Shown in pieces: positions 5,605 through 62,554 of a stretch of 64,000 nt of DNA. Within the stretch, counting starts at the first letter, position 1. Each line of letters begins with the position of its first letter. Origin of the DNA: Saccharospirillum sp. (GTDB lineage: Bacteria > Pseudomonadota > Gammaproteobacteria > Pseudomonadales > Natronospirillaceae); NCBI GenBank assembly GCA_018402545.1, contig JAGYIL010000001.1, positions 2,480,001 to 2,544,000 on the forward strand, in the 5' to 3' direction. Made by a program: the position numbers and the translations under genes. The notes below the pieces were generated by a model. The model did not search any database. It saw only the letters and a program-made list of their open reading frames with translations, and was not told the origin of the DNA.

Positions 5605-5701
5605 CCGCGTCGGCCACCGGCGATGTCTCTGCGAGGTCGGCGTGAATCCGTCCATGGAGCCTAGGCCGACCCCACAGGGGCATACCCGGTATCCGACGCG
5701 G
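5605..5701. repeat. palindromic intergenic element, copy H (degenerate)
   Basis: Between pepA and holC. The two 36-base arms (from CCGCGTCGG at 5605 to CCGACGCGG ending at 5701) align without gaps, with about 27 positions complementary. The core contains GGCGTGAATCC and GTCCATGGAGCCTAGGCC, matching the core of the other copies, but the second inner hairpin is missing. It is the most decayed of the clear copies. Confidence 0.75.
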
Positions 5702-5777
5702 TCCAATGGCTGTATCTCTCTTCCTGCTGCCAGCCGCTTTAGGTACCATGGCGTTTTCGCGCTGATGAACCCGACTC

Positions 5778-6206
5778 ATGACCCAGGTAGATTTCCATAT
5801 TGTTCCGGTGCTGCAAGCCGCCGACCGCTATGCCTATGCCGCGCGTCTGGTCAATAAAGCGCGCAGTCACCGGCACCGTGTACTGCTGGCTGTGGATGAT
5901 GAAGCCATGGCCCGGTCCGTCAGCGAAGTGCTTTGGTCGACGCCGGTTGAAAGTTTTCTGGCGCACAGCTTGCTCGTAGGCAGCGACGATGATGTGCAGA
6001 TTGGCTGGCACGCAGAGCCGGGCCAGCATCATGATGTTCTGATCAATCTGGCCGCTGAGATTCCGGAGTATTTTTCCCGGTTCGAGCGCGTCTTTGAAGT
6101 AGTCAGCCAGGACCCTGCCGTCCTTAACGCCACCCGGTCGCACTACAAGTTCTATCAGGACCGGGGCTATCCGCTGAAGCGGCACGACCTGCGAGACAGG
6201 GTATAA
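5778..6206 (+). CDS. holC: DNA polymerase III chi subunit
   Basis: 142 residues (E. coli 147). Chi links the clamp-loader psi subunit to single-strand binding protein during replication. The pattern TQVDFHIVPVLQAADRYAYAARLVNKARSHRHRVLL, the conserved VDDEAMARSVSEVLW and the C-terminal YKFYQDRGYPLKRHDLR are typical of HolC. It sits between pepA and a conserved unknown directly abutting valS, the arrangement known in pseudomonads. The stop TAA is immediately followed by the ATG of the next gene. Confidence 0.93.
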   Translation: MTQVDFHIVPVLQAADRYAYAARLVNKARSHRHRVLLAVDDEAMARSVSEVLWSTPVESFLAHSLLVGSDDDVQIGWHAEPGQHHDVLINLAAEIPEYFSRFERVFEVVSQDPAVLNATRSHYKFYQDRGYPLKRHDLRDRV

Positions 6207-6749
6207 ATGGATCAGAAGGATTCCAAACAAAGCCTGCTGCAGGATCTGGAAGACATTCGCCAGAGCCTCGACCGGGTTGCCCGGTCGGAATCGCAGATTC
6301 CGTTGCTCGACGAAATCGTCGACAAACGCAGCCCCACGCACGTCAACCCGGACAACCCTTTTCTGTCGAGTCAGTCGCTGTCCGAGCTGATTCGCATCCG
6401 CAATGAAGCCGAAGCCCGGGCGGCCGAGGAGCTGGCGTCACTGGCACCGCTGCGACCGATCACTGAAATTGTTCGCAAAGAGCAAACCCCGCCACCGGTC
6501 GAAGAGCCACCCAAGCCACCCCCGGGGCCGGATCCCGAACAGGTGCTGGCACAACTGGAAACCGTCTTCGATCACTGGATTGAGGATACCGTGGCGGACT
6601 ATCTGAAGCTGTTTGAACGCGACTTGCGCAACCGGCTGCAGCAGGATTTCCGGTCACTGGTCAGCCAGTGGTATGAAGACAACGACTTGCCCCTGCCAGA
6701 GTCTTTCAAACGCGACGACAGCGAAGACCCAGCCACGCCAGACGATTAG
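6207..6749 (+). CDS. conserved hypothetical protein of the holC-valS interval
   Basis: 180 residues. The ATG directly follows the holC stop, with no gap. The N-terminal half is acidic with a heptad-like helix (SLLQDLEDIRQSLDR) and a short VNPDNPFLSSQSL motif; the middle is Pro-rich (about 90-112, PPPVEEPPKPPPGPDPE); the end is another acidic/amphipathic helical region (about 115-165). No catalytic motif is seen. A gene at this place is known in Pseudomonas (between holC and valS), without known function. A polymerase or clamp-loader link is only suggested by position. Confidence 0.85.
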   Translation: MDQKDSKQSLLQDLEDIRQSLDRVARSESQIPLLDEIVDKRSPTHVNPDNPFLSSQSLSELIRIRNEAEARAAEELASLAPLRPITEIVRKEQTPPPVEEPPKPPPGPDPEQVLAQLETVFDHWIEDTVADYLKLFERDLRNRLQQDFRSLVSQWYEDNDLPLPESFKRDDSEDPATPDD

Positions 6750-6774
6750 TTTCGCACCTCTGACCATGTATAAT
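6746..6774 (+). promoter_or_regulatory. candidate sigma70 promoter for valS
   Basis: A perfect TATAAT (6769-6774) lies 17 bases after TTAGTT (6746-6751, weak -35). It is 76 bases upstream of the valS ATG. It overlaps the stop of the previous gene, so valS could be transcribed both from here and by read-through. Confidence 0.5.
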
Positions 6775-6791
6775 GGCAAGCATCAGACTCC

Positions 6792-6820
6792 GGGGCCTAA
6801 CGACAATTGCCCCTTTTTTT
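6792..6820 (+). terminator. hairpin plus T-run in the valS leader
   Basis: GGGGC (6792-6796) and GCCCC (6809-6813) form a short GC stem with a 12-base loop, followed by seven T residues. It lies between the candidate TATAAT and valS. It could end holC-operon transcripts or attenuate valS; the stem is short and the loop large, so the call is weak. Confidence 0.4.
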
Positions 6821-6850
6821 CACCGTCAGCCAAGCGAGTTAAGAGCCCTC

Positions 6851-9706
6851 ATGGAGAAGACGTACCAGCCGCAAGCGATTGAAGGCAAGCATTACCAGCG
6901 TTGGGAAAGCAACGAATGGTTCAAACCCTCGGGTCAGGGCGACTCCTATTGCATCATGATTCCGCCGCCCAACGTCACCGGGTCGCTGCACATGGGTCAC
7001 GCCTTTCAACAAACCATTATGGATGCGCTCACCCGCTACCATCGCATGAAAGGCTGCAATACACTCTGGCAAACCGGCAGTGACCATGCTGGCATCGCCA
7101 CTCAGATGGTGGTTGAGCGTGAGCTGGCGCGCGAAGGCAAAACCCGCCACGATCTCGGCCGGGAAACCTTCATTGACCGCGTCTGGCAGTGGAAGGAACA
7201 GTCGGGCGGTACCATCAGTTCGCAGATGCGCCGGCTGGGCGATTCGGTCGACTGGACTCGCGAGCGCTTCACCATGGATGAAGGCCTGTCCAACGCCGTG
7301 CGTGAAGTTTTTGTGCGGCTGTACGACGACAACCTGATTTACCGCGGCAAACGCCTGGTCAACTGGGACCCGGTGTTTCACACGGCCATTTCCGACCTTG
7401 AAGTGGAAAACAAGGAAGAACAGGGCTCACTCTGGCATTTCCGTTATCCACTGGCCGATGGCGCCACCACCGCCGATGGCAAAGCCTACATTGTCGTGGC
7501 CACTACGCGCCCGGAGACTATTCTGGGCGATACCGCCGTTGCCGTTAACCCGGACGACGAGCGTTACCAGTCCCTGATCGGCAAGTTCGTTGATTTACCA
7601 CTGCTTGGCCGTCGTATTCCTGTTGTTGCCGACGACTATGTCGATTCCGAATTCGGCAGCGGCTGCGTCAAAATCACACCGGCTCATGACTTCAACGATT
7701 ACGAAGTCGGTAAGCGCCACGGTGCCACCCTGGTCAATGTGCTCGATCAGGACGCCAAAATACTACACGCCGCCGAAGCCTATACCTACGATGGCAAACC
7801 CATCGAGGAGTTCAATGGCGCCCTGCCTGAAGGCTATGGCGGACTCGACCGGTTCGATGCCCGCAAGAAAATCATTGCCGATTTTGAAGCGCTGGGCCTG
7901 CTCGACTCCATTAAAGACCACAGCCTGATGGTGCCCCGTGGCGATCGTTCCGATGCGGTGATCGAACCCTGGCTCACCGATCAGTGGTACGTCAGTGCAA
8001 AACCCCTGGCTGAACCGGCCATTAAAGCCGTGGAAAACGGCGATATACAGTTCGTTCCCAAGCAATGGGAAAACACCTACTTCTCCTGGATGCGCGATAT
8101 TCAGGACTGGTGCATTTCACGCCAGCTGTGGTGGGGCCACCAGATTCCCGCCTGGTACGACGCGGACGGTAACGTCTACGTAGGTCGCAGCGAAGCCGAG
8201 GTGCGCAGCAAATACAGCCTCGACGCCAGCCTGACACTGACGCAGGACGAAGACGTACTGGACACCTGGTTCAGCTCTGCCCTCTGGACATTCTCAACGC
8301 TGGGCTGGCCGGAACGCGAAGATCTGGTAAAAACCTTTCACCCGACCGACGTACTGGTGACCGGTTTCGACATCATCTTTTTCTGGGTTGCCAGAATGAT
8401 GATGATGACCCTGCACTTCATCAAGAACGACGACGGCACCCCTCAGGTTCCGTTCAAGAAGGTCTATGTCACCGGGCTGATTCGCGATGAAAATGGCCAG
8501 AAAATGTCGAAGTCGAAGGGCAATGTTATTGACCCGATTGACCTGATCGATGGCATTGACGTTGACGACCTGGTGGCCAAACGCACCAGTGGTTTAATGC
8601 AGCCGAAACTGGCGGCAAAAATTGAAAAGATGACGCGCAAAAGCTTTCCGGAAGGTATGGCCTCATCCGGCACCGATGCGTTGCGTTTCACCCTGGCCTC
8701 GCTGGCCAGCCAGGGGCGGGATATCAATTTCGATGTCAAACGCCTCGAAGGCTATCGCAATTTCTGCAACAAGATCTGGAACGCGGCGCGCTACGTGCTG
8801 ATGAACACCGAAGGGCAGGATTGTGGTCAGAACGGCGGCGAGGTTGAGCTTAGCCTGGCGGACCGCTGGATCAGTTCCCGCTTGCAGGGGCTGGAGCAGG
8901 ATGTCGAGCGTCACTACACGAACTACCGCTTCGACCTGATGAGCCAAGCCTTGTACGAGTTTATCTGGAACGAATACTGCGACTGGTATCTGGAGCTGTC
9001 AAAGCCCGTGCTGTGGGACGAAAACGCCTCAGCCGAGGTTCAGCGCGGTACCCGGCGCACCCTGGTCCGCGTGTTGGAAGCTCTGTTGCGCCTGGCTCAC
9101 CCGATCATGCCGTTCATTACTGAAGAGATCTGGTTGTCGATCCGGGATCTGGCGGCACGTGAAGGCGACACAATAATGTTGCAACCCTTCCCCAAGGCCG
9201 ACCCTGCCAAAATTGACGCTGCCGCCGAGGCCGATATTGAATGGGTAAAGGGCGTCATTGTTGGCGTACGCAATATTCGCGGAGAAATGAACATCGCGCC
9301 GGGCAAACCCTTGCCAGTGTTGTTCCAGAAGGGCAGCGATGAAGATAAACGCCGACTCAGCGAAAACGAAAACTTCCTCAAAACGCTGGCCAAGCTTGAA
9401 AGCGTGACCTGGCTGGAAGAAAACGATGAAGCACCGGTATCAGCAACTCAACTGGTGGGCCAGCTCAAAGTGCTGGTGCCCATGGCGGGGTTGATCGACG
9501 TCGCGGCCGAGCAGGCACGCCTGACCAAGGCGCTGGAAAAAACCAGCAAGGAACTGGCCAAGGTTGAAGGCAAACTCAACAACGAGAATTTTGTCTCCAA
9601 AGCGCCGGATGAGGTTATCGCCAAAGAACGGGAGAAAGCCGATGGCTACGCTCACAGTGTGCGTGAACTGGAGCAACAGCTGGAGCAACTGGCGGCGTTG
9701 AAATAA
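6851..9706 (+). CDS. valS: valyl-tRNA synthetase
   Basis: 951 residues from [16 protein letters not shown], identical in length to E. coli ValRS; an earlier in-frame start at 6773 would overlap the promoter and T-run. It is a class I synthetase that charges tRNA-Val, with a large CP1 editing domain. The HIGH-like motif is HMGH at 47-50 within [15 protein letters not shown], and KMSKS is at 551-555. The end (about 885-950) is the long coiled-coil arm ([21 protein letters not shown]) that contacts tRNA. It is convergent with the next gene, with only 13 bases between. Confidence 0.98.
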
Positions 9707-9719
9707 CGCCCCATCCGAT

Positions 9720-10091
9720 TCAGTAACGCCGCTTGCGATTTTCCGGTTGCTTGGGGCGTTGCGGAACCGGTTTGGCGGGCTTGGTTAGAGCTGCTTTCTT
9801 CTTGCCGGAAGGATCATTCGCATAATCCTTATTGACCGGTATTTTCTTCTTGGGTTTGTGACGCCTGATCATGGCGTAATGAATCCAGCGCACGAATAGC
9901 AGGAACACCAGTGCGCCTATCGCGATGCCACCCAACCAAAGCCACTGAATGTTATCTGCCGACTCGTGCATGAACAGGGCCATGCCCTGAACCCGGTCAC
10001 TCTGGTTCACACCACCCGACCAGGCCGGTAAAGCGGCGGGCAATGCCAACGCCAGGGCAATGGCCCTATGTATTGGTTTAACCTGATTCAT
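9720..10091 (-). CDS. small membrane protein with basic tail, unknown
   Basis: 123 residues: an N-terminal signal-like segment (about 8-26, cleavage perhaps after PAWS/G), a short loop, one strong membrane helix (about 50-68, WLWLGGIAIGALVFLLFVRW), then a very basic Lys/Arg/Pro-rich cytosolic tail (76-123). I do not recognise the family. Its ATG overlaps the stop of the carbonic anhydrase gene (TAATG), so the two are translationally coupled. The tail might bind nucleic acid or anionic lipid, but this is a guess. Confidence 0.75.
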   Translation of the reverse strand: MNQVKPIHRAIALALALPAALPAWSGGVNQSDRVQGMALFMHESADNIQWLWLGGIAIGALVFLLFVRWIHYAMIRRHKPKKKIPVNKDYANDPSGKKKAALTKPAKPVPQRPKQPENRKRRY

Positions 10092-10744
10092 TATTTTGCC
10101 TGTTTCAACAGGGTTTTTATCCGGTTGTGCATGGTTTCACGCAAATCGGTATCTTTCGAGTGCGTGACACCCAAGTCTTTTAGAATGCCGTTATCCAGGC
10201 CGTAAATCCAGCCGTGTAACGACACGGCCTGGCCACGCTCCCAGGCGTTCTGAACGATGGTAGTTTCAGCCAGGTTCAGCACCTGCGCCATCACATTCAC
10301 TTCGCACAGTCTGTTCAGTCTAGTCATTTCATCGGGCAATGCATCAAAATAGCGGCGGTAGATCTTAAGCACATCCTGAATGTGGCGCAGCCAGTTGTCG
10401 ATCAGCCCCAGCCGCTGATTGTTCAAGGCGGCTGCCACCCCGCCGCACCCGTAATGCCCGGTCACAATAATGTGTTTTACTTTCAGCACATCCACGGCGA
10501 ACTGAATAACCGAGAGGCAATTCAAATCGGTATGTACCACCAGGTTGGCCACATTGCGGTGTACAAAAACCTCACCCGGCATCAACCCCATAATCTCATT
10601 GGCTGGCACCCGGCTGTCGGCACAGCCAATCCACAACAGTTCGGGCTTTTGCTGACGCGCCAGTTGCTTGAAAAAATCCGGCTGTTCAGCGGTGATCTGC
10701 TCTGCCCATTGTCGATTGCTTTCCAGCAAATGATCCAAGTTCAA
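10091..10744 (-). CDS. can: beta-class carbonic anhydrase
   Basis: 217 residues (E. coli Can 220). It interconverts CO2 and bicarbonate in the cytosol using zinc. The ligand set is present: Cys41 and Asp43 in IGCADSR (Asp/Arg dyad), His97 and Cys100 in GHYGCGG. Val, Gly and Tyr residues of the regulatory bicarbonate site (for example HYGCGGV) resemble the Can type. It heads a two-gene unit with the small membrane protein downstream. The 131 bases upstream (10745-10875) hold no gene. Confidence 0.96.
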   Translation of the reverse strand: MNLDHLLESNRQWAEQITAEQPDFFKQLARQQKPELLWIGCADSRVPANEIMGLMPGEVFVHRNVANLVVHTDLNCLSVIQFAVDVLKVKHIIVTGHYGCGGVAAALNNQRLGLIDNWLRHIQDVLKIYRRYFDALPDEMTRLNRLCEVNVMAQVLNLAETTIVQNAWERGQAVSLHGWIYGLDNGILKDLGVTHSKDTDLRETMHNRIKTLLKQAK

Positions 10745-10875
10745 ACGGTTTCTCCCAGGGTTATGTCGTTATGCGTCTTCATCCGTGAGAGCGCGGTCTA
10801 TAAAATTCGATCACCTATGTGCCTGAACAATAGAGTAGTCGCTTAATTCGCTTGCTGCCGTGTGCGTCGGCGGCT

Positions 10876-11283
10876 TTATACCAGCCAGAAACCAAGCAGG
10901 AAAAAACGCGCGCCTTTACCCAGCGTCAGCCAGAATGCAGACGCTACGAGTGGCATGCGCAACCACCCGGCTGCCACCGGCAACAAATCGCCCACAACCG
11001 GCAACCAGGCCATGGCCAGCAAAGGTGTCCCCCAGCGTTGCAGATGACGCTCTGTCCTCTGCGCCGGTTGCCAGCGTGATGATACGACACCCGCCTGGCG
11101 CGCCCAGCGGGCCAGCATCAGCATCAGCCAGGCACCCAGAACATTACCGGCCGTTGCCACGAACCAGTAAGCAATAAACAGGTGGCCCGATTCCCGCACC
11201 AGGCCCATAAATAGCAATTCCGTGCCCAATGGCCATAGGGTTGCGGCCACGAAGGCAACGGCGAACAGCAGCAGAAAAGACAC
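10876..11283 (-). CDS. yqaA: YqaA-family inner-membrane protein (SNARE-associated/DedA-like)
   Basis: 135 residues, hydrophobic, with the YqaA pattern: an N-terminal re-entrant region (LPLGTELLFMGLV-like: WPLGTELLFMGLVRESGH), a conserved ATAGNVLGAWLMLMLARWARQ helix, a charged loop (RTERHLQRWG) and the WLPVVGDLLPVAAGWLRMP motif resembling the DedA G-D-x3-P-G-A region. DedA proteins are proton-dependent membrane proteins, some scrambling or flipping lipids. It lies 5 bases from the stop of the flavin-reductase gene. Confidence 0.85.
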   Translation of the reverse strand: MSFLLLFAVAFVAATLWPLGTELLFMGLVRESGHLFIAYWFVATAGNVLGAWLMLMLARWARQAGVVSSRWQPAQRTERHLQRWGTPLLAMAWLPVVGDLLPVAAGWLRMPLVASAFWLTLGKGARFFLLGFWLV

Positions 11284-11288
11284 CCTTG

Positions 11289-11894
11289 TTAGCCAGGCCG
11301 TTCAATATCGAAGGTATCGCGCGTGGTGCTGTAGGTGTTGCCCGCCATACGGCCGACGGCATCCAGTTTGTCGGCCAGAATGCGCCCCTGGTCATACAGC
11401 GGGTCGGCAACCTGCACATGCACAATATCGCCCAGTATCAGACGGCCAGCCATGGGTTCATCTCCAAAACGCTGGATCTCGCGCAACCGACATTCAAAGT
11501 GGATCAGTGCTTCGGCAATGCGCGGTGGCTGAATCGTCAAGGACGGGGTGGTCGACAGGCCGGCGAAACCAATTTCACTGTCGCCTCTTTCCAGTGGTGC
11601 AGAGGTCTGGTTCATCTTTTCAACCACGGCATGGCTGACAATATTCAGAGTAAATTCCGGACAGGCTTCCAGGTTTAGCACCGTGTCTTTTTCGCTGCCG
11701 TCGGGTTTGCGCAACGGGGCAAAAGCGACTATCGGGGGATTAACACTGACCAGGGTAAAAAAGGAAAACGGAGCCAGGTTCAACACCCCTTGCTCGTTGC
11801 GGGTGCACACCCAGGCGATTGGGCGCGGTTGAATCGAGCCTACCATTAACTTGTAGATGGCGGTGGCATCCAGGTCGGCAATGGCCAGTTCCAT
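11289..11894 (-). CDS. flavin reductase-like (FMN-binding split barrel) protein
   Basis: 201 residues from MELAIADLD; a longer frame to 12041 would run into pdxJ and is unlikely. The flavin-reductase-like domain is shown by the N-terminal YKLMVGSIQPRPIAWVCT, then NLAPFSFFTLVSVNPPIVAFAP, KDTVLNLEACPEFTLNIV and the C-terminal LILGDIVHVQV. The family binds FMN; many members reduce flavin with NAD(P)H or act as oxidases. The substrate is unknown. The gene follows pdxJ at 74 bases; PdxJ makes pyridoxine phosphate, and the other split-barrel enzyme PdxH oxidises it, but the sequence here looks like the flavin-reductase branch and not PdxH. Confidence 0.85.
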   Translation of the reverse strand: MELAIADLDATAIYKLMVGSIQPRPIAWVCTRNEQGVLNLAPFSFFTLVSVNPPIVAFAPLRKPDGSEKDTVLNLEACPEFTLNIVSHAVVEKMNQTSAPLERGDSEIGFAGLSTTPSLTIQPPRIAEALIHFECRLREIQRFGDEPMAGRLILGDIVHVQVADPLYDQGRILADKLDAVGRMAGNTYSTTRDTFDIERPG

Positions 11895-11968
11895 GGGGAG
11901 TATCCTGTATCCAGAAAAGTGTCTGCCCGGTTCATCACCCGGGCTTCGGAAAACCGGCCAGCAACAGG

Positions 11969-12709: not shown

Positions 12710-12766
12710 TCAGATTCCTGCAGGCTCTTTCGACCGTTTGCCCTAGTGTACCAAAGTTTCCTGGCT

Positions 12767-16795: not shown

Positions 16796-16818
16796 TGAGC
16801 CAATCCTTGCGTCGACCA

Positions 16819-19617: not shown

Positions 19618-19679
19618 ATTGGTTTCTCTCGCAAAACCCATTACGTTCGGAGTTGGGGTTTGTCACTTGCCGGGAGTTC

Positions 19680-19792
19680 GTGCTGGCCACCGGGTAGGCC
19701 TGTTCGGGGTCGGCGTAAACCCTTCCATGGGGCCTAGACCGCATCATCCCTGATGCGGACTACCCCGAACAGGCCTACCCGGCAACCAGCAC
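19680..19792. repeat. palindromic intergenic element, copy A
   Basis: 113 bases. The outer arms GTGCTGG..GGTAGGCCTGTTCGGGG and their complement pair at 28 of 31 positions, the exceptions being a run of three. The core has the inner hairpin CCGCATCA/TGATGCGG and the shared segment CCATGGGGCCTAGACCGC. It lies upstream of zntB and downstream of the YbjN-type gene's 3' end. Confidence 0.85.
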
Positions 19793-19824
19793 TCAGTCTT
19801 CTGCCAATTCAGCCTTCAATTCTG

Positions 19825-29662: not shown

Positions 29663-29833
29663 TTTCGGAATTGGCAACCAATTGAGTGTCAGGTACCGGG
29701 TATACCGATCTGGGGAAGTCCGCAGCAAGGATGCTGCGGTCTAGGCCCCATGGATGGGTCCACGCCGACCCCAGATCGGTGTACCCGGTGCCTGACACGA
29801 ACTCCTGGCACCATGGGAAAACTAACTCCGAAA
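29663..29833. repeat. palindromic intergenic element, copy B (inside an operon)
   Basis: 171 bases between the inner terminal repeats TTTCGGAATT (29663-29672) and AACTCCGAAA (29824-29833). The main arms GTGTCAGG...GATCTGGGG (from 29686) and their complement (to 29798) pair at 28 of 30 positions. The core is in reverse orientation to copies A and D, and contains GCAGCAAGGATGCTGC and GGCCCCATGGATGGG. It shares the flank GCAACCAATTGAGTGTCAGG with copy C. Confidence 0.85.
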
Positions 29834-29850
29834 CCTGGGTTATTTGGCCA

Positions 29851-42332: not shown

Positions 42333-42543
42333 AGTTATTAGCCGGAAATTCGTGGAATAGATATCCCCCGAGCCAGTACTTTCTACGGTGCCAATCGGGC
42401 TATCGGGTACGTCTGCTGGGGCACGCTGTAAATACCTCCCTGTAAGCTCGGAGACCGCATCCATGCGGTCTAACGGCCCCCAACAGACGCACCCGACAGC
42501 CCTTCGATAAATTAAGTGGTTAATATCCGGCTCAGAACTCTAG
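42329..42543. repeat. palindromic intergenic element, copy G, stop codon to stop codon
   Basis: 215 bases between two convergent genes. The terminal repeats CTAGAGTT.. (42329) and ..AACTCTAG (42543) match at 19 of 22 positions; the TAG within each is the stop codon of the oxidoreductase gene (plus) and of aspA (minus). The inner arms GGGCTaTCGGGTaCGTCTG and its complement also pair, with one loop-side insertion. The core contains GACCGCAT-CC-ATGCGGTC. The core sequence is more diverged than in copies A-E. Confidence 0.85.
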
Positions 42544-45060: not shown

Positions 45061-45087
45061 ACGAGTTCCGAAGCTTGTACGCAACGA

Positions 45088-45137
45088 GCGCCGGATGCTT
45101 GAGATGCCTCTGCAGAGGCACCACCAGCACCCGGCGC
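45088..45137. repeat. interrupted hairpin, possibly decayed palindromic element
   Basis: GCGCCGG (45088) and CCGGCGC (to 45137) enclose TGCT/AGCA and TGCCTCTG-CAGAGGCA, a nested imperfect hairpin of 50 bases. It is downstream of the LysR gene. Flanking sequence includes CGAAACCTGGG (near 45165), also present next to copy B, so it may be a remnant of the same family. Confidence 0.5.
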
Positions 45138-45210
45138 GGACCATTGCCACTATTTGAAGCCCGAAACCTGGGCACAAGACAGCGCTTTTGTTGAAAGCCA
45201 CCCAATAAAA

Positions 45211-53849: not shown

Positions 53850-53898
53850 CTAAATGGGGTACATTCAGGGGCACAGAGCCACCGCTGACGGAGCCCTC

Positions 53899-54870
53899 AT
53901 GAAAGCCGTATTTCTCGACGCCGCCACCTTTCCCGATGAACAGACGCTGACACCACCAGACGCCGTAACCGACTGGCAAAGCTTCGACAAAACATCACCT
54001 GAACAGCGCCTCGAACGCTTGCAACAGGCCGAGATTGCTCTGGTCAACAAGGTGGTGCTGGATGCGCCCCTGCTGGCCCAGCTTCCCGATCTCAAGTGCA
54101 TTGGGGTAACAGCCACCGGCACCAACAACGTCGATCTGGAAGTCTGCAGGGCCCGGGGCATTGCCGTGTTCAACGCCACCGGTTACGCCGTTGACGCCGT
54201 TGGCGAGCACTGCATCATGATGATGCTGGCGCTGGCTCGCAATCTGAAGGCCTACCTCAGAGATGCCGACGATAAAGGCTGGAGCCAGAGCCCGTTTTTC
54301 TGCAACCGCATCGCACCGATCAACACCTTGACTGGCAAGCGTCTGGTGATTGTTGGCAAAGGGGATCTGGGTACGGCCGTTGCCAGCCGCGCTCAGGCCC
54401 TGGGGCTCTCGGTGGTTTACGCTGAACGGCCCGGGGCTGAGACCATCAGGCCGGGTTATACCGCCTTTGAAACCGCGCTGTCGCTGGCCGATGTTCTGAG
54501 CCTGCATTGCCCGCTGACCGACCAGACCCGGGGCATGATCAACCAACACACGCTGAGCCTGATGCAGCCCCACGCTCTGCTCATCAACAGCGGCCGGGGC
54601 GACCTGGTGGTTGAACCCGATTTACTGGATGCCCTGACCCGGGGCGTCATCGGCGCGGCGGCGCTGGATGTGGCCAGCAGTGAACCACCCCCGCCAGACC
54701 ACATCATCTGGCAACTGGCGGCCCTGCCAAACGTTATCGTGACACCTCATGTCGCCTGGTCATCAGATGGCGCCATGGCCCGCCTGCTGCGCCAGTTGGA
54801 GGTAAAACTGAATCGCTGGGCCCGGCAGGAACCCGGCGCACTGGACGAGTCGCTGACCCACGACAGTTAA
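53899..54870 (+). CDS. D-2-hydroxyacid dehydrogenase (glycerate dehydrogenase-like)
   Basis: 323 residues from MKAVFLDAATFPDEQ, ACGGAG upstream. NAD-binding fold GKGDLGTAVASRAQALG (GxGxxG), catalytic Arg in LINSGRGDLV, Glu in LDVASSEPPP, and His in VTPHVAW. GVTATGTNNVDLEVCRARGIAVFN and WSQSPFFCNRIAPINTLTGKRLVI resemble the hydroxypyruvate/glycerate dehydrogenase branch (HprA). The substrate is not certain. Its TAA stop lies within the first bases of element F. Confidence 0.9.
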   Translation: MKAVFLDAATFPDEQTLTPPDAVTDWQSFDKTSPEQRLERLQQAEIALVNKVVLDAPLLAQLPDLKCIGVTATGTNNVDLEVCRARGIAVFNATGYAVDAVGEHCIMMMLALARNLKAYLRDADDKGWSQSPFFCNRIAPINTLTGKRLVIVGKGDLGTAVASRAQALGLSVVYAERPGAETIRPGYTAFETALSLADVLSLHCPLTDQTRGMINQHTLSLMQPHALLINSGRGDLVVEPDLLDALTRGVIGAAALDVASSEPPPPDHIIWQLAALPNVIVTPHVAWSSDGAMARLLRQLEVKLNRWARQEPGALDESLTHDS

Positions 54871-55133
54871 TAACTCAAGGTTCGGAGATCAAATTGACTG
54901 CATCGCCTTGAACCCGCAGCGGATGGCAGGGCTGCTTTTGCGGGGGCGCCGTGAATATGTCCATATAGGCTTAACTTCGGGATATGAATCCCATCCATGG
55001 GATTCACCCTTCGGGCTCGCTGCGCTCATGCTAAAACGCTCCTGGCGTTTTAGTCCATGCCTCAGATACCCCCGCAAAAGCAGCCCTGCCACCCGCCGCT
55101 AATCGATTGCAAACTCCGAAACTTGAGTTATTA
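54868..55133. repeat. palindromic intergenic element, copy F (large)
   Basis: 266 bases. Terminal repeats TAATAACTCAAGgTTCGGAG (54868-54887) and the complement at 55114-55133 match at 19 of 20; the left TAA is the dehydrogenase stop codon. The inner arms GGCAGGGCTGCTTTTGCGGG and complement are perfect apart from one base. The core has GAATCCCAT-CC-ATGGGATTC (54986-55005) and CTAAAACGC-tcctg-GCGTTTTAG (55031-55053). It joins copy C almost directly. Confidence 0.85.
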
Positions 55134-55139
55134 CCTGAG

Positions 55140-55311
55140 TTTCGGAATTTGCAACCAATTGAGTGTCAGGTGCCGGGGGTACCTATCCGGGGTAGTCTGA
55201 GGCATGGATGCCGAAGCCTAGGCCCCACGGACGGGTTCACGCCGACCCCGGATAGGTACCCCCGGTGCCTGACACGGACGCATTGCACCAATGGACAACT
55301 GAACTCCGAAA
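55140..55311. repeat. palindromic intergenic element, copy C
   Basis: 172 bases between TTTCGGAATT (55140) and AACTCCGAAA (to 55311). Main arms GTGTCAGGtgCCGGGGGTAC... and complement pair except at two G.T positions. The core reads GCCCCACGGACGGGTTCACG, in the same orientation as copies B and E. The flank GCAACCAATTGAGTGTCAGG is the same as in copy B. Elements F and C together occupy most of the 640-base gene-free stretch 54871-55510. Confidence 0.85.
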
Positions 55312-55455
55312 CTTCAGTTATTAACCAGACTGCTTCTTCCCGGTGGCCATCTCCGGCTTGTGAGCCAGCTCACAGGCTGTGAAAAAAGCCCCATCAGTGA
55401 CCTACTTTCATCGCACTCATTTCCCTCCAGACTAAGCGATACGGGGGTTTTGGCG

Positions 55456-55461
55456 TATAAT
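55456..55461 (+). promoter_or_regulatory. perfect -10 (TATAAT) upstream of the MaoC gene
   Basis: TATAAT 50 bases upstream of the ATG at 55511. No convincing -35 is seen at 17 bases, so the promoter is only partly supported. Confidence 0.4.
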
Positions 55462-55510
55462 CCCTATTATTCCCGCTGGACCAGCCTCTGTGTGAAATGG
55501 ATTCCCGGAC

Positions 55511-56185
55511 ATGAGTGTCATCGATCTAATCAAAGAAAAGAAAGAACGCCTGAGCCAGAACCAGGCGGAATTCAGGGAGCTTATTGCGCCGCAGTGGCGC
55601 GAGTACTGGAACGAACTCTGGCAAAGCGCCCGCAATCACGAATGGGTCAACTGGGTTCTGGACCAGGATCGCAAGCCGGTCGATGCCCCTCAGGACTCCC
55701 TTACCGAGTGCGATAACCCACGTGCTGAAGCCATGCGCCAGACGCTGCTGAGCCAGTTGGGTGACATCGTTTATGAGGGCCAGTGGCTTACGTTGGAGCA
55801 AGACCGCATCAACGCCTTTGCCGAGGTTACCGAAGACCAGCAGTGGATTCATACCGACCCGGCACGGGCTGAACAGGAATCTCCGTTCAGGGCCACCATC
55901 GCCCATGGGTTTCTGACCCTGTCGATGATTCCCAAGCTTACCAACTCAGTTGACCCGGCCAATCCGCCCTACCCTGGCGCGAAAATGGTGGTCAATCTCG
56001 GCCTGAACAAGGTACGTTTTCCCTACCCGCTAAAAGCGGGCAGCCGGATACGGGCTACCAAGAAGATCGTCGCGGTTGAAGTAGTGCGTCGCGGGCTGGA
56101 AGTCACGGAAGAAGTCACCGTCAATATCGAACACACCCGACGCCCAGCCTGCGTGGCTGAAACCGTGGTTCGCCTGGTCTATTAA
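55511..56185 (+). CDS. MaoC-like (R)-specific dehydratase/hydratase with N-terminal extension
   Basis: 224 residues. The C-terminal half (about 85-224) is a MaoC hotdog: FAEVTEDQQWIHTDPARA (Asp/His catalytic dyad) and the loop PFRATIAHGFLTLSMIPKLTNS. About 80 charged N-terminal residues (SVIDLIKEKKERLSQNQAEFRELIAPQWREYWNEL) are extra and helical. Such proteins hydrate enoyl-CoA or similar acyl-CoA. The stop codon is the first TAA of element D. Confidence 0.9.
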   Translation: MSVIDLIKEKKERLSQNQAEFRELIAPQWREYWNELWQSARNHEWVNWVLDQDRKPVDAPQDSLTECDNPRAEAMRQTLLSQLGDIVYEGQWLTLEQDRINAFAEVTEDQQWIHTDPARAEQESPFRATIAHGFLTLSMIPKLTNSVDPANPPYPGAKMVVNLGLNKVRFPYPLKAGSRIRATKKIVAVEVVRRGLEVTEEVTVNIEHTRRPACVAETVVRLVY

Positions 56186-56384
56186 TTTACTCAGGTTTTG
56201 GAGTTCGCGGTTGGCCATGTTGCCAGTCGTCCGCACCGGCCACCAGGTAGGGCTATCGAGGGTCGGCGTTAACCCATCCATGGGGCCTGGACCGCAGCAT
56301 CCATGCTGCGGACCACCCTCGATAGCCCTACCTGGCATCCGATGCTAACCCAGTGCTAGCGAACTCCAAAACCTGAGTAAATTA
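56183..56384. repeat. palindromic intergenic element, copy D, stop codon to stop codon
   Basis: 202 bases filling the whole space between the MaoC gene and prmC. Its ends (56183-56208 and 56359-56384) are perfect complements over 26 bases, beginning TAATTTACTCAGG; the terminal TAA of each strand is the stop codon of the gene on that side. Inside, CAGGTAGGGCTATCGAGGGT and complement pair perfectly, enclosing hairpins CCCATCCATGGG (56273-56284) and CCGCAGCAT-CC-ATGCTGCGG (56292-56311). Confidence 0.9.
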
Positions 56385-57233
56385 AAGCGAACCAGGCACA
56401 GGGTTCCACTGGCCAAAGCTAACCCGATCCCGGTTTCCCATATCCTGCACGGTTGCTATTGAGGCATAGCCTTGGCTTTCAAAACACTTTCTGACCGCTT
56501 CACCCTGCGTCCAGCCATGCTCTAGAAACAACCAGCCACCTGGGGCAAGAACCCGTCGCCCCTGCTCAATCAGAATTCGAATATCGGCCAGTCCATCTTC
56601 GGCGGCTACCAGAGCCGTCAGCGGTTCAAAGCGCACATCGCCTTGCTGCAAGTGAACATCATCGGCGGCAATATAGGGGGGATTCGATACTAGGAGATCC
56701 AGGCTGTGATCCGCCAATGCATCGCACCAGTGGCTTTGGCCCACGGTTACTGGCAACCCCAGATGGTGCGCATTCTCTTGCGCCAGGGCCACGGCATCCG
56801 GTTGAACATCAAAAGCGCTGATGGTCCAGCCGGGTCGTTCGCTGGCCAGTGCCAGCGCTATGGCACCCGTACCGGTGCCCAAATCCGCCACTCTCAATGA
56901 AAGTTGGTCAAAGCGGTTCAGAATGGTCTCGACCAGTGTCTCTGTGTCTGGCCTGGGAATCAGCGTACTGGCGTTTACCTTTAACGGCAGAGACCAGAAT
57001 TCGCGCGTGCCGAGTATATGAGCGACCGGCTCGCCATTAAGACGTCGTTGAATCAGGTCGCCAAACCGCTTTTGCTGGTCATCCGTGAGTTCCCGATCGG
57101 GCCAGGTAAAAAGCCAGGTTCGGCTTTTATCGAGCACAAAGGCAAGCAACAGATCGGCATCGAGTGCTTCCAGGCCCTGCTGGTGAGCCCATTGCTGCGC
57201 CTGGCGAACCTGGTTCAGGCCAGTGTCTGACAT
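56382..57233 (-). CDS. prmC: release factor N5-glutamine methyltransferase
   Basis: 283 residues (E. coli 277), AGGAAG upstream. It methylates the Gln of the GGQ motif of release factors using S-adenosylmethionine. N-terminal helical domain (1-80), then the methyltransferase fold ADLGTGTGAIALALA with NPPY at 184-187 (LLVSNPPYIAADD), the catalytic Asn motif. Third gene of the hemA-prfA-prmC operon, as in many gammaproteobacteria. Its stop codon is in element D. Confidence 0.96.
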   Translation of the reverse strand: MSDTGLNQVRQAQQWAHQQGLEALDADLLLAFVLDKSRTWLFTWPDRELTDDQQKRFGDLIQRRLNGEPVAHILGTREFWSLPLKVNASTLIPRPDTETLVETILNRFDQLSLRVADLGTGTGAIALALASERPGWTISAFDVQPDAVALAQENAHHLGLPVTVGQSHWCDALADHSLDLLVSNPPYIAADDVHLQQGDVRFEPLTALVAAEDGLADIRILIEQGRRVLAPGGWLFLEHGWTQGEAVRKCFESQGYASIATVQDMGNRDRVSFGQWNPVPGSL

Positions 57234-57263
57234 AGGTTTGGCTTCCTGTAAGGTCAGCGCAGA

Positions 57264-58349
57264 TCAGGACTGCGACATGTCAGCCAGCAGTTGTGCCTGA
57301 TGCTCCTGCACCAACGGGTCCACGACCTGATCCAAAGCGCCCTGCATCACTTCATCGAGCTTGTAGAGCGTTAAATTGATGCGGTGGTCAGTAATGCGCC
57401 CTTGCGGGAAGTTGTAGGTACGGATGCGCTCGGAACGATCGCCACTGCCGACCAGGCTGCGCCGGGTATCGGCCTGTTCACGGGCGGCGGCACTGGATTG
57501 GGCGTCCATGATCTTGGCGGCCAGTAACGACATGGCCCGGGCCTTGTTCTTGTGCTGGGAGCGTTCATCCTGGCATTCCACCACGATCCCGGTGGGCAGG
57601 TGCGTCAGGCGCACTGCCGAATCGGTTCTGTTAACGTGCTGACCGCCGGCGCCCGAGGCGCGGTAGGTGTCGACCCGCAAATCACCCTTGTCGATCTCGA
57701 CTTCGGCCAGTTCGTCGGCTTCAGGCATCACCGCGACGGTGCACGCTGAGGTGTGAATTCGCCCCTGACTCTCGGTTTCCGGGACGCGCTGAACCCGATG
57801 GGCGCCGGATTCAAACTTGAGATGAGAATACACCTGGTCACCGCTGATGCGGCTGATGATTTCCTTGAAACCACCGTGCTCGCCTTCACTGGCCGATAAC
57901 ACTTCCAGGCGCCAGCCCATGCGTTCCGCGTATCGGCCGTACATCCGGTGCAGGTCACCGGCAAACAGGGCGGCTTCGTCACCACCGGTGCCTGCCCGCA
58001 CTTCAAGAAAGACGTTACGGCCGTCGTTCGGGTCTTTGGGCAGCAGCAGAATCTGCAACTCATCGGTCAGTTGATCCAGGCGCTCTTCGCCCTGCTTCAC
58101 TTCATCGCGGCCCATGTCGCGCATCTCGGGGTCGCTGTCGTCCAGCAACTGTCGGGCATCGCGAATGTCACGCTCAACGCCCTCATAGCGGGCAAAGCAG
58201 CCAACGACGTCTTCAAGCTCCGCATATTCCTGGGAATACTGGCGGAACCGGGTCTGATCGGTGATCACCTCGGGCTGGGACAGCAGACGTGCCAGTTCGT
58301 CATAACGTTCTGTCAGTTCAGACAGTTTCTGGCGGATGGAGTCTTTCAT
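57264..58349 (-). CDS. prfA: peptide chain release factor 1
   Basis: 361 residues (E. coli 360). It recognises UAG/UAA stop codons and triggers peptide release. GGQ is at 235-237 ([20 protein letters not shown]), the methylated Gln being Q237; the stop-codon-reading PxT motif is PET (190-192, [14 protein letters not shown]). It lies between hemA and prmC, the latter encoding its modifying enzyme. The gap to hemA is 15 bases. Confidence 0.98.
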
Positions 58350-58364
58350 AGACGCTTGGATGCC

Positions 58365-59621
58365 TTATAAATCAAACAGACGGGAAACCCAGTCACTGGC
58401 TTCCTTGTCATCACCGTCCCCATGGGCCTTGCGCAAGGCCACCGTGGGGGCGTGGAGTAATTTGTTGGTCAGCCCCCGGGCCAGTTGCTCGACCACCCGC
58501 TGGGCGTCGACACCCTGTTCCAGAGCTCGACGGGCTTTTTCCAGCTCGACGTCTTTCAAGGTTTCGGCCTGGCGACGCAGAGCGCGAATGGTGTCAGCCG
58601 CCTGGCGTTCTTTCAACGACTGACTGAATGCATCGGTCGAGCGGGCGATGATGTCCATTGCTTCGCGCGCGGCCTCCTGCCGGCTGCGTACGTTGGCTTC
58701 GATGACGGTTTTGAGATCATCCACCGTGTATAGATAGACGTCTGACAGATCCCCGACTTCACTCTCGATATCACGAGGGACGGCGATATCGACCATGAAC
58801 ACCGGCCTGTGGCGGCGTTTCTTCAACGCTCGCTCCACCATGCCCTTCCCGATAATAGGTAACTGGCTGGCGGTTGAGGAAATCACGATGTCGGCGCCGG
58901 GCAGTTCATCGGGTATGTCTGAGAGCAGTACCGCACGGGCGCCGAACTCCGACGCCAGGCTTTGAGCCCGGGCCAGCGTTCGGTTGGCAACAACGATGTC
59001 GGTGACGCCTTTGTCGCGCAGATGGCGGGCCACCAGGTCGATGGTTTCGCCAGCCCCGATCAGCAGCGCCCGGCACCGGTCCAGGCGGTCGAAGATGCGG
59101 GTGCTCAGACGCACGGCAGCATAGGCAACACTGACGGCATTCTCGCCAATGGCGGTGTGGGTGCGCACTTCCTTGGCCACACGAAAACTGTGTTGAAACA
59201 GATGGTGTAACTGCTGCCCAACCGAATCGTATTCCTGGGCAACGGCGAAGGCCGACTTGAGTTGCCCCAGAATTTGCGGTTCGCCCAGCACCATCGAATC
59301 GAGCCCGGCCGCAACACGACCCAGATGGGAGACTGCATCGGCATCGGCATGAATGTAGAGCGCAGCGCGCAGTTCGTCGGGGGAAATGCGGTGTGTCAGG
59401 GCAAGCCACTGGATCAGGGCTTCTATGCCAACAGCAGGCTCGGTCAGGGAGCAATAGATTTCACTGCGGTTGCAGGTGGAGAGAATCACCGTCTCCTCGA
59501 TGCCCGGAATCGACAACACCGACGCCAGGGAATCGGACATGGTTTCGGGAGCGAAACTGACTTTCTCCCGAACGTCTACTGACGCCGTGTTGTGATTAAT
59601 ACCTAGGGCCAGCAATGACAT
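58365..59621 (-). CDS. hemA: glutamyl-tRNA reductase
   Basis: 418 residues from [20 protein letters not shown] (E. coli 418); a longer frame to 59654 is not favoured. It reduces glutamyl-tRNA to glutamate semialdehyde, the first step of tetrapyrrole synthesis. The nucleophile Cys50 is in [17 protein letters not shown]-binding core [16 protein letters not shown] and the C-terminal dimer helix are present. Start of the hemA-prfA-prmC operon; divergent from a TPR lipoprotein. Confidence 0.97.
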
Positions 59622-60084
59622 GTTTGGACGGGGCCTGCTCACTTCGTTGATCAAACGCGTAGTCTACCGATTTTCCGGTCCCGAGGCGACTGTGATAACG
59701 CCCGGCACCCATGCTCTAACAAGCCAGAAGGCTGCCATCTTTACACGGATTTACGCTTCGCCTGCTGTACCCGGCAGCCACCCACAGGTCACTCTAACCA
59801 GGCACTGGAAGGCAGTATGAGGGCAGCCGGGTCACAAACAATGCCGCGGCCGCTATACTCATGATTGCCGATAGCTATGACGCATGACGGGATGCACTGT
59901 CCGAGCCACCCGAGACTGAGCTGAACCATCACCCTGTGCGTACACCCTAATCATGGTGTTGGCTGCATTGGCTGTGATTCAGTCGGTGCACCCAAGGGCA
60001 ACACCTCCGGCCACAAAACCCCGGAGTAACCTGTGTTTTAACCCAGGTCGTAACCCTCATCATCAGACTGCGAAGCCGAGACAC
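59622..60084. other. 463-base divergent intergenic region with candidate promoter
   Basis: No gene is credible here. A possible plus-strand promoter is GTCACA (59831-59836) with a 17-base spacer and TATACT (59854-59859). It would drive the TPR lipoprotein and lolB. The hemA promoter on the other strand is not evident. Confidence 0.4.
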
Positions 60085-61833
60085 ATGACATCTACAGCAC
60101 CTTTCAAACGCACCTTGCTGGCCACTCTGGTTCTTAGCCTGGCCTTGAGTGGCTGCACCACGACAGCCTCCCAGGCAGAGTCATCGGGCGATGCCGCACC
60201 TCAAACCGACTCATCCGAAGCGCAAGCACCCCGGCCCGAAACCCGCATTGCGACAACGCCGCTAACCGGAGAGGCTTTCTACACCCTGCTGCTGGCAGAA
60301 ATCGCCACCAACCGTGGCGACTACGGCTCAGCCGCGCAGCTCTACAGCCGCCTCGACCGGCAATACGACGATCTGGAAGTAGCCCAGCGCGCCACGGCCC
60401 TGAACCAGGTAGTGGGCAATTACGACGCCATGGGCGAACATGCTGGCCACTGGTTGCGGCTCGAGCCGGAGAATGCCGAAGGCTGGCAAGCACTGACCAT
60501 CGCCAGCCTGGCCAATGCAGACCAGGTCACCGCCAGCCGGGCGCTGAATCAGTGGCTGACGCTCGACCCGGACGCCGAAATTGAAGTGGCACTCGCTGGC
60601 ATTTCCACCCTGACCGCCGACCAGCAGGAACGTTTGCTGCCGGTATTGGCCGAGGCCGAGGCCAAACATCCGGAGAACACCAGCATCGGGTTTGCCAATG
60701 CCCAGTTGCTGTCGACGCTGGGCCAGTATGAACAGGGGCTGGAGGTCATCAGGGCTAACCGGGCACAGCAAGACAGTCCGGACAAAGGCCTGCTGGAATT
60801 CCGGCTCCATCTAGAACTGAACGACATTGAACAGGCCCGTACGGTAATCAGTGACCTGGCCGAGCGTTATCCAAACAACAGCCAGGTCGCCACCACCTTC
60901 GCCGGCTTTGCCTATGCCGATTCGGATACCAACAAAACAGAGACACTGGAATCCCTGTTCAACCGCTTTCCGAACGAACCGGTAATCGCCCGTGCCTTTG
61001 CCCGTGAGTCATTCGACAATGAAGACTACGACACCGCAGAAGTGCTGTTCGAACGACTGACAAACTCTGAATTCAGCGATGAATCACACTATTTTCTGGG
61101 CAGAATCAGTCGCATTAATCGCGTGCCGGATGAAGCTGCCCAGCGCTTTTTAAGCGTCGAAGCTCCCCCTTACCTGGTGTCGGCCCTCGCTGAGCTCAGT
61201 GAAGTATGGCAAGACACTCGCCCCACTGATGTCCAGGAAGCCCTGCATCAGGCCCGCCAGAATTACCCGGCCCAAAGCCCGGTACTATGGCGCATTGAAG
61301 CCGACCTGTTTCGCAGACTGGGTGATACTGACCAGGCCATGGCCGTATACGGGCAAGCCCTGTCAGCCCACCCGGGTGATACCAGCCTGCTTTACGACCA
61401 GGCTCTAATGGCGGCCAACCTGGGCCAGTATGAATTGCTTGAAGCAAACCTGACCGAAGTTCTTGAGCAGGAGCCGGATAACGCCTCGGCACTGAACGCA
61501 CTGGGTTACACCTGGGCAGACCGCAACATGAATCTGGACCAGGCAAAACGCTACATCGACCGGGCGCTGGAGCAACAACCGGATGACCCGGCAATCCAGG
61601 ATTCCAAGGGCTGGGTGGAATACCGCCTGGGTAATCTGGAAGAAGCAGAGCGCTGGTTACGTCGCTCTCTGGAATCCATGGAATCCGATGAAGTAGCGGC
61701 GCATCTGGCGGCGGTATTGTGGGAACAGGACAAACAGGAAGAAGCCCAGCGCTGGCTCGACCAGGCGTTTAGCTGGAACAGCAACAGCCCGACCGCCAGG
61801 AACATCATTGAAACGCTGGACATCGACCGATGA
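60085..61833 (+). CDS. TPR-repeat lipoprotein
   Basis: 582 residues. Signal peptide with lipobox LALSGC (Cys about 27), so it is an acylated lipoprotein. The rest is a solenoid of tetratricopeptide repeats; the clearest are near 455-560 (AQSPVLWRIEADLFRRLGDTDQAM, NASALNALGYTWADRNMNLDQA). It is co-transcribed with lolB, overlapping by 4 bases (ATGA). A TPR gene beside lolB is a common arrangement in pseudomonads. It probably scaffolds an outer-membrane protein complex; the partner is unknown. Confidence 0.9.
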   Translation: MTSTAPFKRTLLATLVLSLALSGCTTTASQAESSGDAAPQTDSSEAQAPRPETRIATTPLTGEAFYTLLLAEIATNRGDYGSAAQLYSRLDRQYDDLEVAQRATALNQVVGNYDAMGEHAGHWLRLEPENAEGWQALTIASLANADQVTASRALNQWLTLDPDAEIEVALAGISTLTADQQERLLPVLAEAEAKHPENTSIGFANAQLLSTLGQYEQGLEVIRANRAQQDSPDKGLLEFRLHLELNDIEQARTVISDLAERYPNNSQVATTFAGFAYADSDTNKTETLESLFNRFPNEPVIARAFARESFDNEDYDTAEVLFERLTNSEFSDESHYFLGRISRINRVPDEAAQRFLSVEAPPYLVSALAELSEVWQDTRPTDVQEALHQARQNYPAQSPVLWRIEADLFRRLGDTDQAMAVYGQALSAHPGDTSLLYDQALMAANLGQYELLEANLTEVLEQEPDNASALNALGYTWADRNMNLDQAKRYIDRALEQQPDDPAIQDSKGWVEYRLGNLEEAERWLRRSLESMESDEVAAHLAAVLWEQDKQEEAQRWLDQAFSWNSNSPTARNIIETLDIDR

Positions 61834-62390
61834 GATCCCTCATCGTTGTTGCTCTGGCCACTCTGGTATTGACTGGATGTGCCGGTTTCGGCAAGCAGCC
61901 CGGGGCCAGTGAGCTGACCGAAAACTGGGCGCTGTCGGGCAAGATGGCGGTTCGCAACGCCACCGAAGCCAGCAGTTTCAATGTGGACTGGGAGCAACGG
62001 GCGCAGGACTTCGAGATCGAACTGAGCGGCCCGCTGGGGCAAGGTGCCGTTCAGATTAGCGGTGAACCGGGCGAAGTGACTCTAACGAAAGGGTCCGATC
62101 AGGTGACCCGCAGCACCCTGCGCGAGCTAGCCTACGAAATTACCGAACTGGATCTGCCGCTCGACTACCTGCAATTCTGGGTGCGCGCCAAACCCTACCC
62201 GGGCATAGAAGCTACCGTTAACCGGGATACGGAGAACGGGCAAGTACAAAGCATTTCTCAATCGGGCTGGCAAGTGGACTACCCGTTGTACTTCACTGAA
62301 ACCGGAGAATCCCTGCCTCGAAGAATTGATTTCGCCCGCAATGGCAGCAGTGGCCGGCTGGTCATCCGTAACTGGGTCAGTGAGCTTTAG
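61830..62390 (+). CDS. lolB: outer-membrane lipoprotein receptor LolB
   Basis: 186 residues. Lipobox LVLTGC followed by AGFGKQ. LolB takes lipoproteins from LolA and inserts them in the outer membrane. The LolB pattern GKMAVRNATEASSFNVDWEQR, LSGPLGQGAVQISGEPGEVTL, and the C-terminal GWQVDYPLYFTETGESLPRRI is present. It overlaps the TPR gene by 4 bases. ispE, usually next, is absent; element E and an opposite-strand acyltransferase gene follow. Its stop TAG borders element E. Confidence 0.93.
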   Translation: MRSLIVVALATLVLTGCAGFGKQPGASELTENWALSGKMAVRNATEASSFNVDWEQRAQDFEIELSGPLGQGAVQISGEPGEVTLTKGSDQVTRSTLRELAYEITELDLPLDYLQFWVRAKPYPGIEATVNRDTENGQVQSISQSGWQVDYPLYFTETGESLPRRIDFARNGSSGRLVIRNWVSEL

Positions 62391-62554
62391 AGGCCGCGCC
62401 ATAGAAGGCCAGTGACGGTTGCCAGATAGGCTTATCCAGGGTGGTCCGCAGCAGGGAGCTGCGGTCCAGGCCCCATGGATGGGTTCACGCCGACCCTGGA
62501 TAAGCCTATCTGGTGACCGGCACGGGTTATCGGCAACCTGTCAGCCGCGGCCTC
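62390..62554. repeat. palindromic intergenic element, copy E
   Basis: 165 bases. Outer repeats GAGGCCGCG (62390) and CGCGGCCTC (to 62554); the first G is the last base of the lolB stop codon. Main arms ..CCAGATAGGCTTATCCAGGGT and its complement pair fully over 20 bases, with G.T positions further out. Core in the same orientation as B and C: CCGCAGCagggaGCTGCGG and CCCATGGATGGG. Confidence 0.85.

Follow-up and report, generated by a model that had tools for sequence, protein, structure and literature searches.

The activity of CsrA is understood to be set by a few dedicated sponge RNAs; these CsrA-sequestering small RNAs, of the CsrB/RsmY/RsmZ type, are each encoded at a single locus, are regulated and have their own promoters. 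TwoAYGGAY (Rfam RF01731) has been described as a probable RNA of the human gut, the gamma-Proteobacteria and the Clostridiales (Weinberg 2010, PMC2864571), and CsrA binding has been proposed for it independently (Gardner and Eldai 2014, PMC4333381). Here we have analyzed a family of palindromic intergenic elements in a 64,000-nucleotide stretch of DNA from Saccharospirillum sp. (GenBank assembly GCA_018402545.1, contig JAGYIL010000001.1). This stretch, C1:2480001-2544000 of a genome of 4.25 Mb in 11 contigs, is called the window below and holds eight copies of the element, A to H. The closest named family is TwoAYGGAY. What is new here is that elements of this kind make up an intergenic repeat family with many copies and a mobile appearance; the proposal that TwoAYGGAY binds CsrA was already known. 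A literature search (open-licence papers, without supplements) found no description of these repeats.

The family can be set beside several known systems. It shares with CsrB, RsmY and RsmZ hairpin loops containing GGA that could bridge a CsrA dimer, but it occupies more than 150 scattered places without a conserved promoter-like flank. Like REP and REPIN sequences with RAYT, and like TIRtrons, it is high-copy, extragenic and palindromic, occurs as inverted doublets and tolerates G.U pairs. However, REPs are defined as palindromes of 20-40 bp tagged GTAG or CGTC, whereas our family has a 116-nt three-way core whose consensus ends carry neither tag, and its copies do not lie beside Y1 transposase genes, one weak case excepted. 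An initial annotation of the window had already held that these are not REPs, as the features tested bear out. Part of the family resembles miniature inverted-repeat transposable elements: of 150 copies, 33 carry the 17-bp terminal inverted repeat at both ends, 26 at one and 91 at neither. No cognate transposase was found in a genome-wide search that covered the Y1 family.

Identification of the element family

Two covariance models were used. R1 describes the 116-nt core and was built from 28 copies; R2 is a 73-nt model of the hairpin pair, built from 41 sequences, 39 of them foreign. Run over the whole window (expected value E <= 0.01), each model retrieves all eight copies. R2 gives no extra match, and R1 adds reverse-strand echoes and one short overlapping palindrome at 45087-45139 (30.5 bits), which is probably unrelated to the family. 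The eight copies reported in the initial annotation are therefore real, and they do form one family with a two-hairpin core. A typical copy consists of a copy-specific stem of about 31 bp, hairpin 1 (ACCCATCCATGGGG-like) and hairpin 2 (CCGCAGCATCCATGCTGCGG-like). The arms, described from the outset as specific to each copy yet complementary within it, pair over 87-94% of the inner arm in copies B, C, E, F, G and H, a list that leaves out A and D. Some copies add an outer 17-bp terminal repeat like ACTCAGGTTTCGGAGTT; it had been assigned to B, C, D and F, of which C and F are confirmed and B and D are not, and it is also present at E and G.

A genome-wide covariance-model search, as the initial annotation had suggested, shows how far the family extends. 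The best 150 of 2658 candidates scored with R1 all match, the weakest with E 4.8e-13. Adding 13 further copies from other stretches of the genome and window copies A, D and E gives at least 166 places; all copy counts are lower bounds. The 17-mer terminal repeat, with up to 3 mismatches, has 80+76 sites in the genome, compared with 3+7 for the reversed control.

The relation to TwoAYGGAY is graded. The gathering cut-off of RF01731 is 43 bits, and at gathering level no Rfam family, CsrB/Rsm families included, matches in the window. A lenient Rfam scan of 54700-56500 places RF01731 on the strand that carries GGA in its loops (the GGA strand) of copy G with 37.6 bits (E 6.8e-4) and of copy F with 26.7 bits; microRNA families that appeared in the same scan were taken for long-hairpin artefacts. 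Elsewhere in the genome, C6:287664-287784 scores 49.6 bits, above the cut-off. Among 38 genomes, this one and relatives, 16 give some RF01731 signal and 8 pass the cut-off, as against none of 14 control genomes. Fifteen places pass it in 18 loci picked mostly for RF01731 matches, one of them in the present genome, and nothing reaches it in 18 family loci of other genera. Both families have a long outer stem around two neighbouring hairpins with A-N-GGA-N loops. They differ in that hairpin 1 of our family has a UUCAC side loop and in that its hairpin 2 often reads AAGGAU or AGGGAU, not AYGGAY; high-copy dispersal is not stated in the accessible portion of the published TwoAYGGAY description.

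Folding and covariation

In an alignment of 28 copies (A1), 97.5% of cells are paired, compared with 86.3% after shuffling. Double changes occur at 23 pairs (12.8 shuffled) and the covariation score is 0.333 (0.119 shuffled). None of 500 shuffles matches these three values, although kinship among the A1 sequences inflates such shuffling statistics. The weakest measure, further standard pair types, stands at 42 versus 37.5 and is reached by 19 of 500 shuffles. Shifting the pairing partners along the alignment abolishes the signal. Covariation across genomic copies, on which the initial annotation had staked its structural claim beforehand, is thus present, and that claim survived. Four orthologous pairs shared with a sister species (G001) align without gaps; among their stem changes, 11 are compensatory double changes, 6 are single changes and 2 are double changes of other kinds. 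The fold places two adjacent hairpins within an outer stem, as in the TwoAYGGAY layout. The GGA strand is the better folder in 143 of 150 copies of this genome and in 55 of the 76 foreign copies kept for this comparison (84 foreign occurrences were collected, and 66 kept for the arm comparison below); in 160 random windows the difference between strands was not significant.

Constraint on one strand

When a transition hits one member of a base pair, one strand is left with a G.U wobble and the opposite strand with A.C, so mismatches reveal which strand is held to its fold. Counting stem mismatches over the 121 copies with a length of exactly 116 nt gives 95 with G.U on the GGA strand, 8 with G.U on the TCC strand and 78 of other kinds. 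The 29 of 150 copies of other lengths and pair 46-51, at the loop ends, were left out before counting. The asymmetry of 95:8 has p 5e-20, but this and the following p-values count cells as independent although the copies are related. It appears in every gene context: 36:0 where the GGA strand is sense to its neighbours, 20:3 where it is antisense, 32:5 at convergent and 6:0 at divergent sites.

The outer terminal repeats provide an internal control. In the 33 copies that have both, the count is 26:25. The 26 copies scored in both parts give 17:20 in the repeats versus 30:3 in the core (Fisher p 9e-5), and mismatches other than GGA-strand G.U affect 43 of 442 pairs in their repeats and 15 of 1092 in their cores. 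Mutational bias or DNA-level correction of one arm by the other should affect both parts. No other point of the analysis is as robust as this comparison between parts of the same elements. In the 66 foreign gammaproteobacterial loci, scoring the arms beyond 8 nt from the core yields 87:17, and the mismatches fall at many positions; the balance favours the GGA strand in 42 loci and the opposite strand in 8, and is even in 16. The places that score as TwoAYGGAY and have long enough arms (12 of 15) give 25:0. A ratio of 301:12 from a free arm comparison of the Saccharospirillum copies was set aside, since constant wobbles outside the model pairs were thought to inflate it.

The GGA strand is thus constrained as a folded single strand, either RNA or possibly single-stranded DNA. 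The initial annotation had offered two readings of the paired arms, compensatory change under a structural constraint or copying of one arm from the other. The former is favoured and the latter disfavoured, because copying should not tell G.U from A.C. Cores may turn over within older repeats, however, so the asymmetry alone does not tell whether selection acts on resident copies or at the copying step. This one-strand constraint, the ANGGAN loops and the relation to TwoAYGGAY had all been overlooked in the initial annotation.

Hairpin loops and CsrA sites

The loops of the GGA strand are nearly constant. Among the 121 full-length copies they fit CANGGANG (C-ANGGAN-G) in 120 for hairpin 1 and in 116 for hairpin 2, while both N positions vary among copies; the stricter AYGGAY loop is found in 99 and 63, respectively. 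The distance from GGA to GGA is 20 nt in our 116-nt alignment; of 66 foreign copies measured, 45 have the same spacing and 14 have 21 nt. In published work the RsmE/CsrA loop is an ANGGAN hexaloop, the consensus from systematic evolution of ligands by exponential enrichment (SELEX) is RUACARGGAUGU, and a CsrA dimer bridges 10-63 nt with an optimum above 18 (PMC7652899). ANGGAN hexaloops on a C-G pair, in pairs 10-63 nt apart, are what this family has. The csrA gene is present in all 38 genomes searched (one copy in this genome), and its presence therefore does not discriminate between readings.

The explanation that we favour, giving it about an even chance, is that the element is a portable RNA module, of the TwoAYGGAY type, that binds CsrA and acts as a CsrA decoy or tether where it is transcribed. 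Its working form would be a single strand, namely that carrying GGA in the loops. As RNA this strand would form a stem of about 31 bp closed by two ANGGAN hairpins on a C-G pair some 20 nt apart, and the two hairpins together would offer one twin site to a CsrA/RsmA dimer. Copies would have been spread over the genome by a mobility mechanism, and those that are transcribed may serve as decoy or tether. Transcription of the GGA strand, CsrA binding, and binding as the reason for the upkeep of the copies are inferred. If more than 150 copies per genome carry twin CsrA sites and some are transcribed, the free CsrA pool would depend on mobile repeats. A broader and distinctly tentative proposal is that TwoAYGGAY and its kin, instead of being ordinary noncoding RNA genes, might constitute a superfamily, spread across the Gammaproteobacteria, of selfish mobile RNA elements akin to short interspersed nuclear elements and carrying a twin CsrA site; each genome would then build up a dispersed CsrA sponge that is able to evolve, and binding of CsrA may help the element to persist or to spread. 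The wobble-asymmetry test, with outer repeats as internal control, identifies the strand of a palindromic repeat that is under single-strand constraint and could be applied to REPs and other orphan palindromes as well.

Genomic placement, turnover and alternative explanations

None of the 150 copies overlaps a called gene (genes were called with a home-made codon-usage caller). Convergent gene pairs flank 43 copies, divergent pairs 18 and co-directional pairs 87; two lie at edges. At foreign loci our open reading frame (ORF) caller put 27 of 84 copies inside long ORFs that were taken for spurious and 13 at edges; the co-directional copies outside these showed no orientation bias (11:14).

Turnover was assessed within 800 kb of the sister species, whose DNA is about 80% identical. 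Both flanks lie together there for 32 of 150 sites. A recognisable copy is present there at 12 of these: 9 copies, several of them diverged or carrying inserts, keep the orientation seen here and 3 are reversed. The remaining 20 sites have none. One site, C5:32368, is in the same orientation in the sister species; its opposite score stems from a neighbouring orthologue within the 150-nt flank. At least 3 of the 20 unfilled sites keep arm-only or degenerate remnants, so loss contributes to the differences in presence and absence. The alignment of orthologous intergenic regions that the initial annotation had proposed thus reveals filled and unfilled sites; it yielded no clean empty site, and target-site duplications could not be established at any of the 32, since the intergenic DNA is too diverged and several sites hold collapsed remnants. 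Loci L336, L337 and L353 of this genome and the sister-species sites of C1:826223 and C1:2356009 have lost the core and kept outer arms or terminal repeats.

Several observations weigh against a CsrA-binding RNA module. There is no orientation bias to the flanking genes (46 GGA-sense and 41 antisense among the 87 co-directional sites), the wobble asymmetry persists at antisense-placed sites, and a conserved promoter-like flank was looked for around the copies and none was seen. The core is reversed at 3 of the 12 sites still filled in the sister species, and inverted doublets in one arrangement look like a feature of transposition. A crude finder located a second hairpin in 78 of 84 foreign copies and none in the other 6; of the 78, only 53 fit CANGGANG. 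The second hairpin alone is informative here, the first being fixed by the search pattern. Finally, hairpin 2 is very stable, while SELEX ligands have mostly 4 bp or fewer (PMC7652899).

The absence of orientation bias and the inverted doublets make a REPIN-like substrate of single-stranded DNA transposition the main rival. It would have the GGA strand fold as DNA, a transposase read the hairpins, the constraint act at the mobility step and the likeness to CsrA sites be coincidental, an account that we consider rather unlikely. High copy number and the presence, absence and orientation differences between sister species agree with it, as does the lack of a bias to transcription. In all 12 pairs of copies less than 600 bp apart in this genome (9 of 9 in the list of 150), of which E and F are one, the GGA strands diverge; the same holds for 4 of 4 close pairs in the 800 kb of the sister species, one of them orthologous to a pair here, and divergent close pairs occur among the listed matches in G014, G174, G210, G338, G411 and G678, in other genera too. 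Pairs 600-5000 bp apart have mixed orientations (8, 7, 6, 4). REPINs are themselves inverted doublets (PMC3116915). Doublets elsewhere, however, are not always divergent: close matches in the same direction are found in a tandem array in G229, in G398, in G022 and at G001:C53. Such a substrate also does not predict ANGGAN loops with free N positions and a spacing of about 20 nt, and the terminal repeats, which 91 of 150 copies lack, are symmetric between the strands.

Y1 transposase genes occur in 16 of 18 element-bearing genomes and in 25 of 38 genomes overall, in line with a REPIN-like substrate. REPtrons carry REPs at the transposase gene, whereas the element is at none of 30 Y1 loci (95.9 kb) of element-bearing genomes and at one of 12 in relatives, weakly (25 bits, E 1.8e-4). 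The Y1 gene of this genome, C1:1871362, lies about 33 kb from the closest copy. Since the 42 loci yield one weak match, the co-occurring Y1 transposase was not adopted as partner, and the matching transposase that the initial annotation had proposed to look for did not emerge from a genome-wide search of the Y1 family. Its view that the elements, if mobile, are non-autonomous is judged right. None of 14 window ORFs scanned matches a transposase family (one had no match of any kind). The only Y1 transposase gene found in this genome falls in a stretch of C1 (1,775,890-2,219,033, about 443 kb) with only three of the 166 known copies, under the genome average.

A structure acting in cis in 3' untranslated regions, as terminator, messenger RNA stabiliser or roadblock for the flanking genes, is improbable. 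Placement outside called genes in all 150 cases, the excess of convergent over divergent sites (43:18, p 0.002) and the long, stable stems would suit it. Against it, sense and antisense placements are balanced (46:41), a conserved U-tract was looked for at the element flank and none was seen, and the strand asymmetry is unrelated to the direction of neighbouring genes. A last account sees the elements as neutral palindromes in the DNA, whose perfection template-switch (quasipalindrome) correction would maintain. It would explain arms that are copy-specific yet paired and collapsed copies with arms or terminal repeats only, in this genome and the sister species, but such correction should be blind to G.U versus A.C. 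The asymmetry seen (95:8 for the core against 26:25 for the outer repeats, and 87:17 elsewhere) largely refutes this account, which we regard as very improbable.

Distribution in Gammaproteobacteria

The core pattern occurs in at least 117 stretches, and the 80 listed are all titled Gammaproteobacteria except two titled Proteobacteria or Pseudomonadota. The matches listed include Xanthomonas, Stenotrophomonas, Arenimonas, Marinobacter, Alteromonas, Rheinheimera, Methylomicrobium, Microbulbifer, Cellvibrio and other genera. Of 398 Pseudomonadota sampled, R2 detects the element in 31, every one of them of the order or class of the window, the share of the 398 outside that class not being given. 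Within Gammaproteobacteria it is positive in 70 of 369 genomes and 62 of 272 genera, with at least 13 matches in 24 of the 70. R1 is positive in 18 of 38 genomes, and its counts in five congeners are 5, 13, 94, at least 97 and at least 97. The tandem array in another genus of the order (G229:C1:94434-95643) has six listed R2 matches in one orientation, spaced about 227 bp apart.

Copies in the window

Copy G illustrates the complete arrangement. Its core lies at 56231-56346 with the GGA strand on the minus strand (R1 132.7 bits), where it also gives the TwoAYGGAY match of 37.6 bits mentioned above. Hairpin 1 (56265-56287, A1 columns 35-57) and hairpin 2 (56289-56314, columns 59-84) both have the minus-strand loop ATGGAT. 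The left terminal inverted repeat (56189-56205, minus) directly follows the stop codon of the upstream gene, which ends at 56185, and the right one is at 56362-56378 (plus, 2 mismatches to the 17-mer). Copy B has its core, a stem with two ANGGAN hairpins, at 19678-19793 (GGA strand minus, R1 132.4 bits) and is in the genome list of 150. The core of copy C is at 29685-29800 (GGA strand plus, R1 129.1 bits), with a right terminal repeat at 29824-29840 (plus, 2 mismatches), and that of copy H is at 62411-62525 (GGA strand plus, R1 123.5 bits).

The remaining copies include the divergent ones. In copy A (5605-5701, GGA strand minus; R1 65.6, R2 35.6 bits) the fold indicates that hairpin 2 is lost. 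Copy D (core 42391-42504, GGA strand minus; R1 66.9, R2 52.2 bits) is a variant subtype. Copies E and F form the inverted doublet. The core of E, a variant with an insert of about 80 nt in hairpin 2, spans 54914-55100 (GGA strand minus; R1 72.6, R2 25.5 bits) between terminal repeats at 54873-54889 (minus, 2 mismatches) and 55112-55128 (plus, 0 mismatches). The core of F is at 55162-55277 (GGA strand plus; R1 120.4, TwoAYGGAY 26.7 bits), with a right terminal repeat at 55302-55318 (plus, 1 mismatch).

The window ORFs that flank the copies look ordinary. They include an M17 aminopeptidase, HolC, CorA, YbjN, an ABC ATPase with an FtsX permease, and a DAO oxidoreductase; further neighbours are a lyase/fumarase, a 2-hydroxyacid dehydrogenase, MaoC, a PrmC-like protein, LolB and an acyltransferase.

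Two structural variants recur. A module of about 80 nt with its own CCC-ATGGAT-GGG-type hairpin lies inside hairpin 2 of copy E and of loci L334, L340, L343, L344 and L351; two sites of the sister species carry an insert of this kind that is missing from the orthologue in this genome. At L334, L335, L340 and L342, all in this genome, an extra GGGCGG..CCGCCC hairpin replaces the GGCGTGAA side of hairpin 1.

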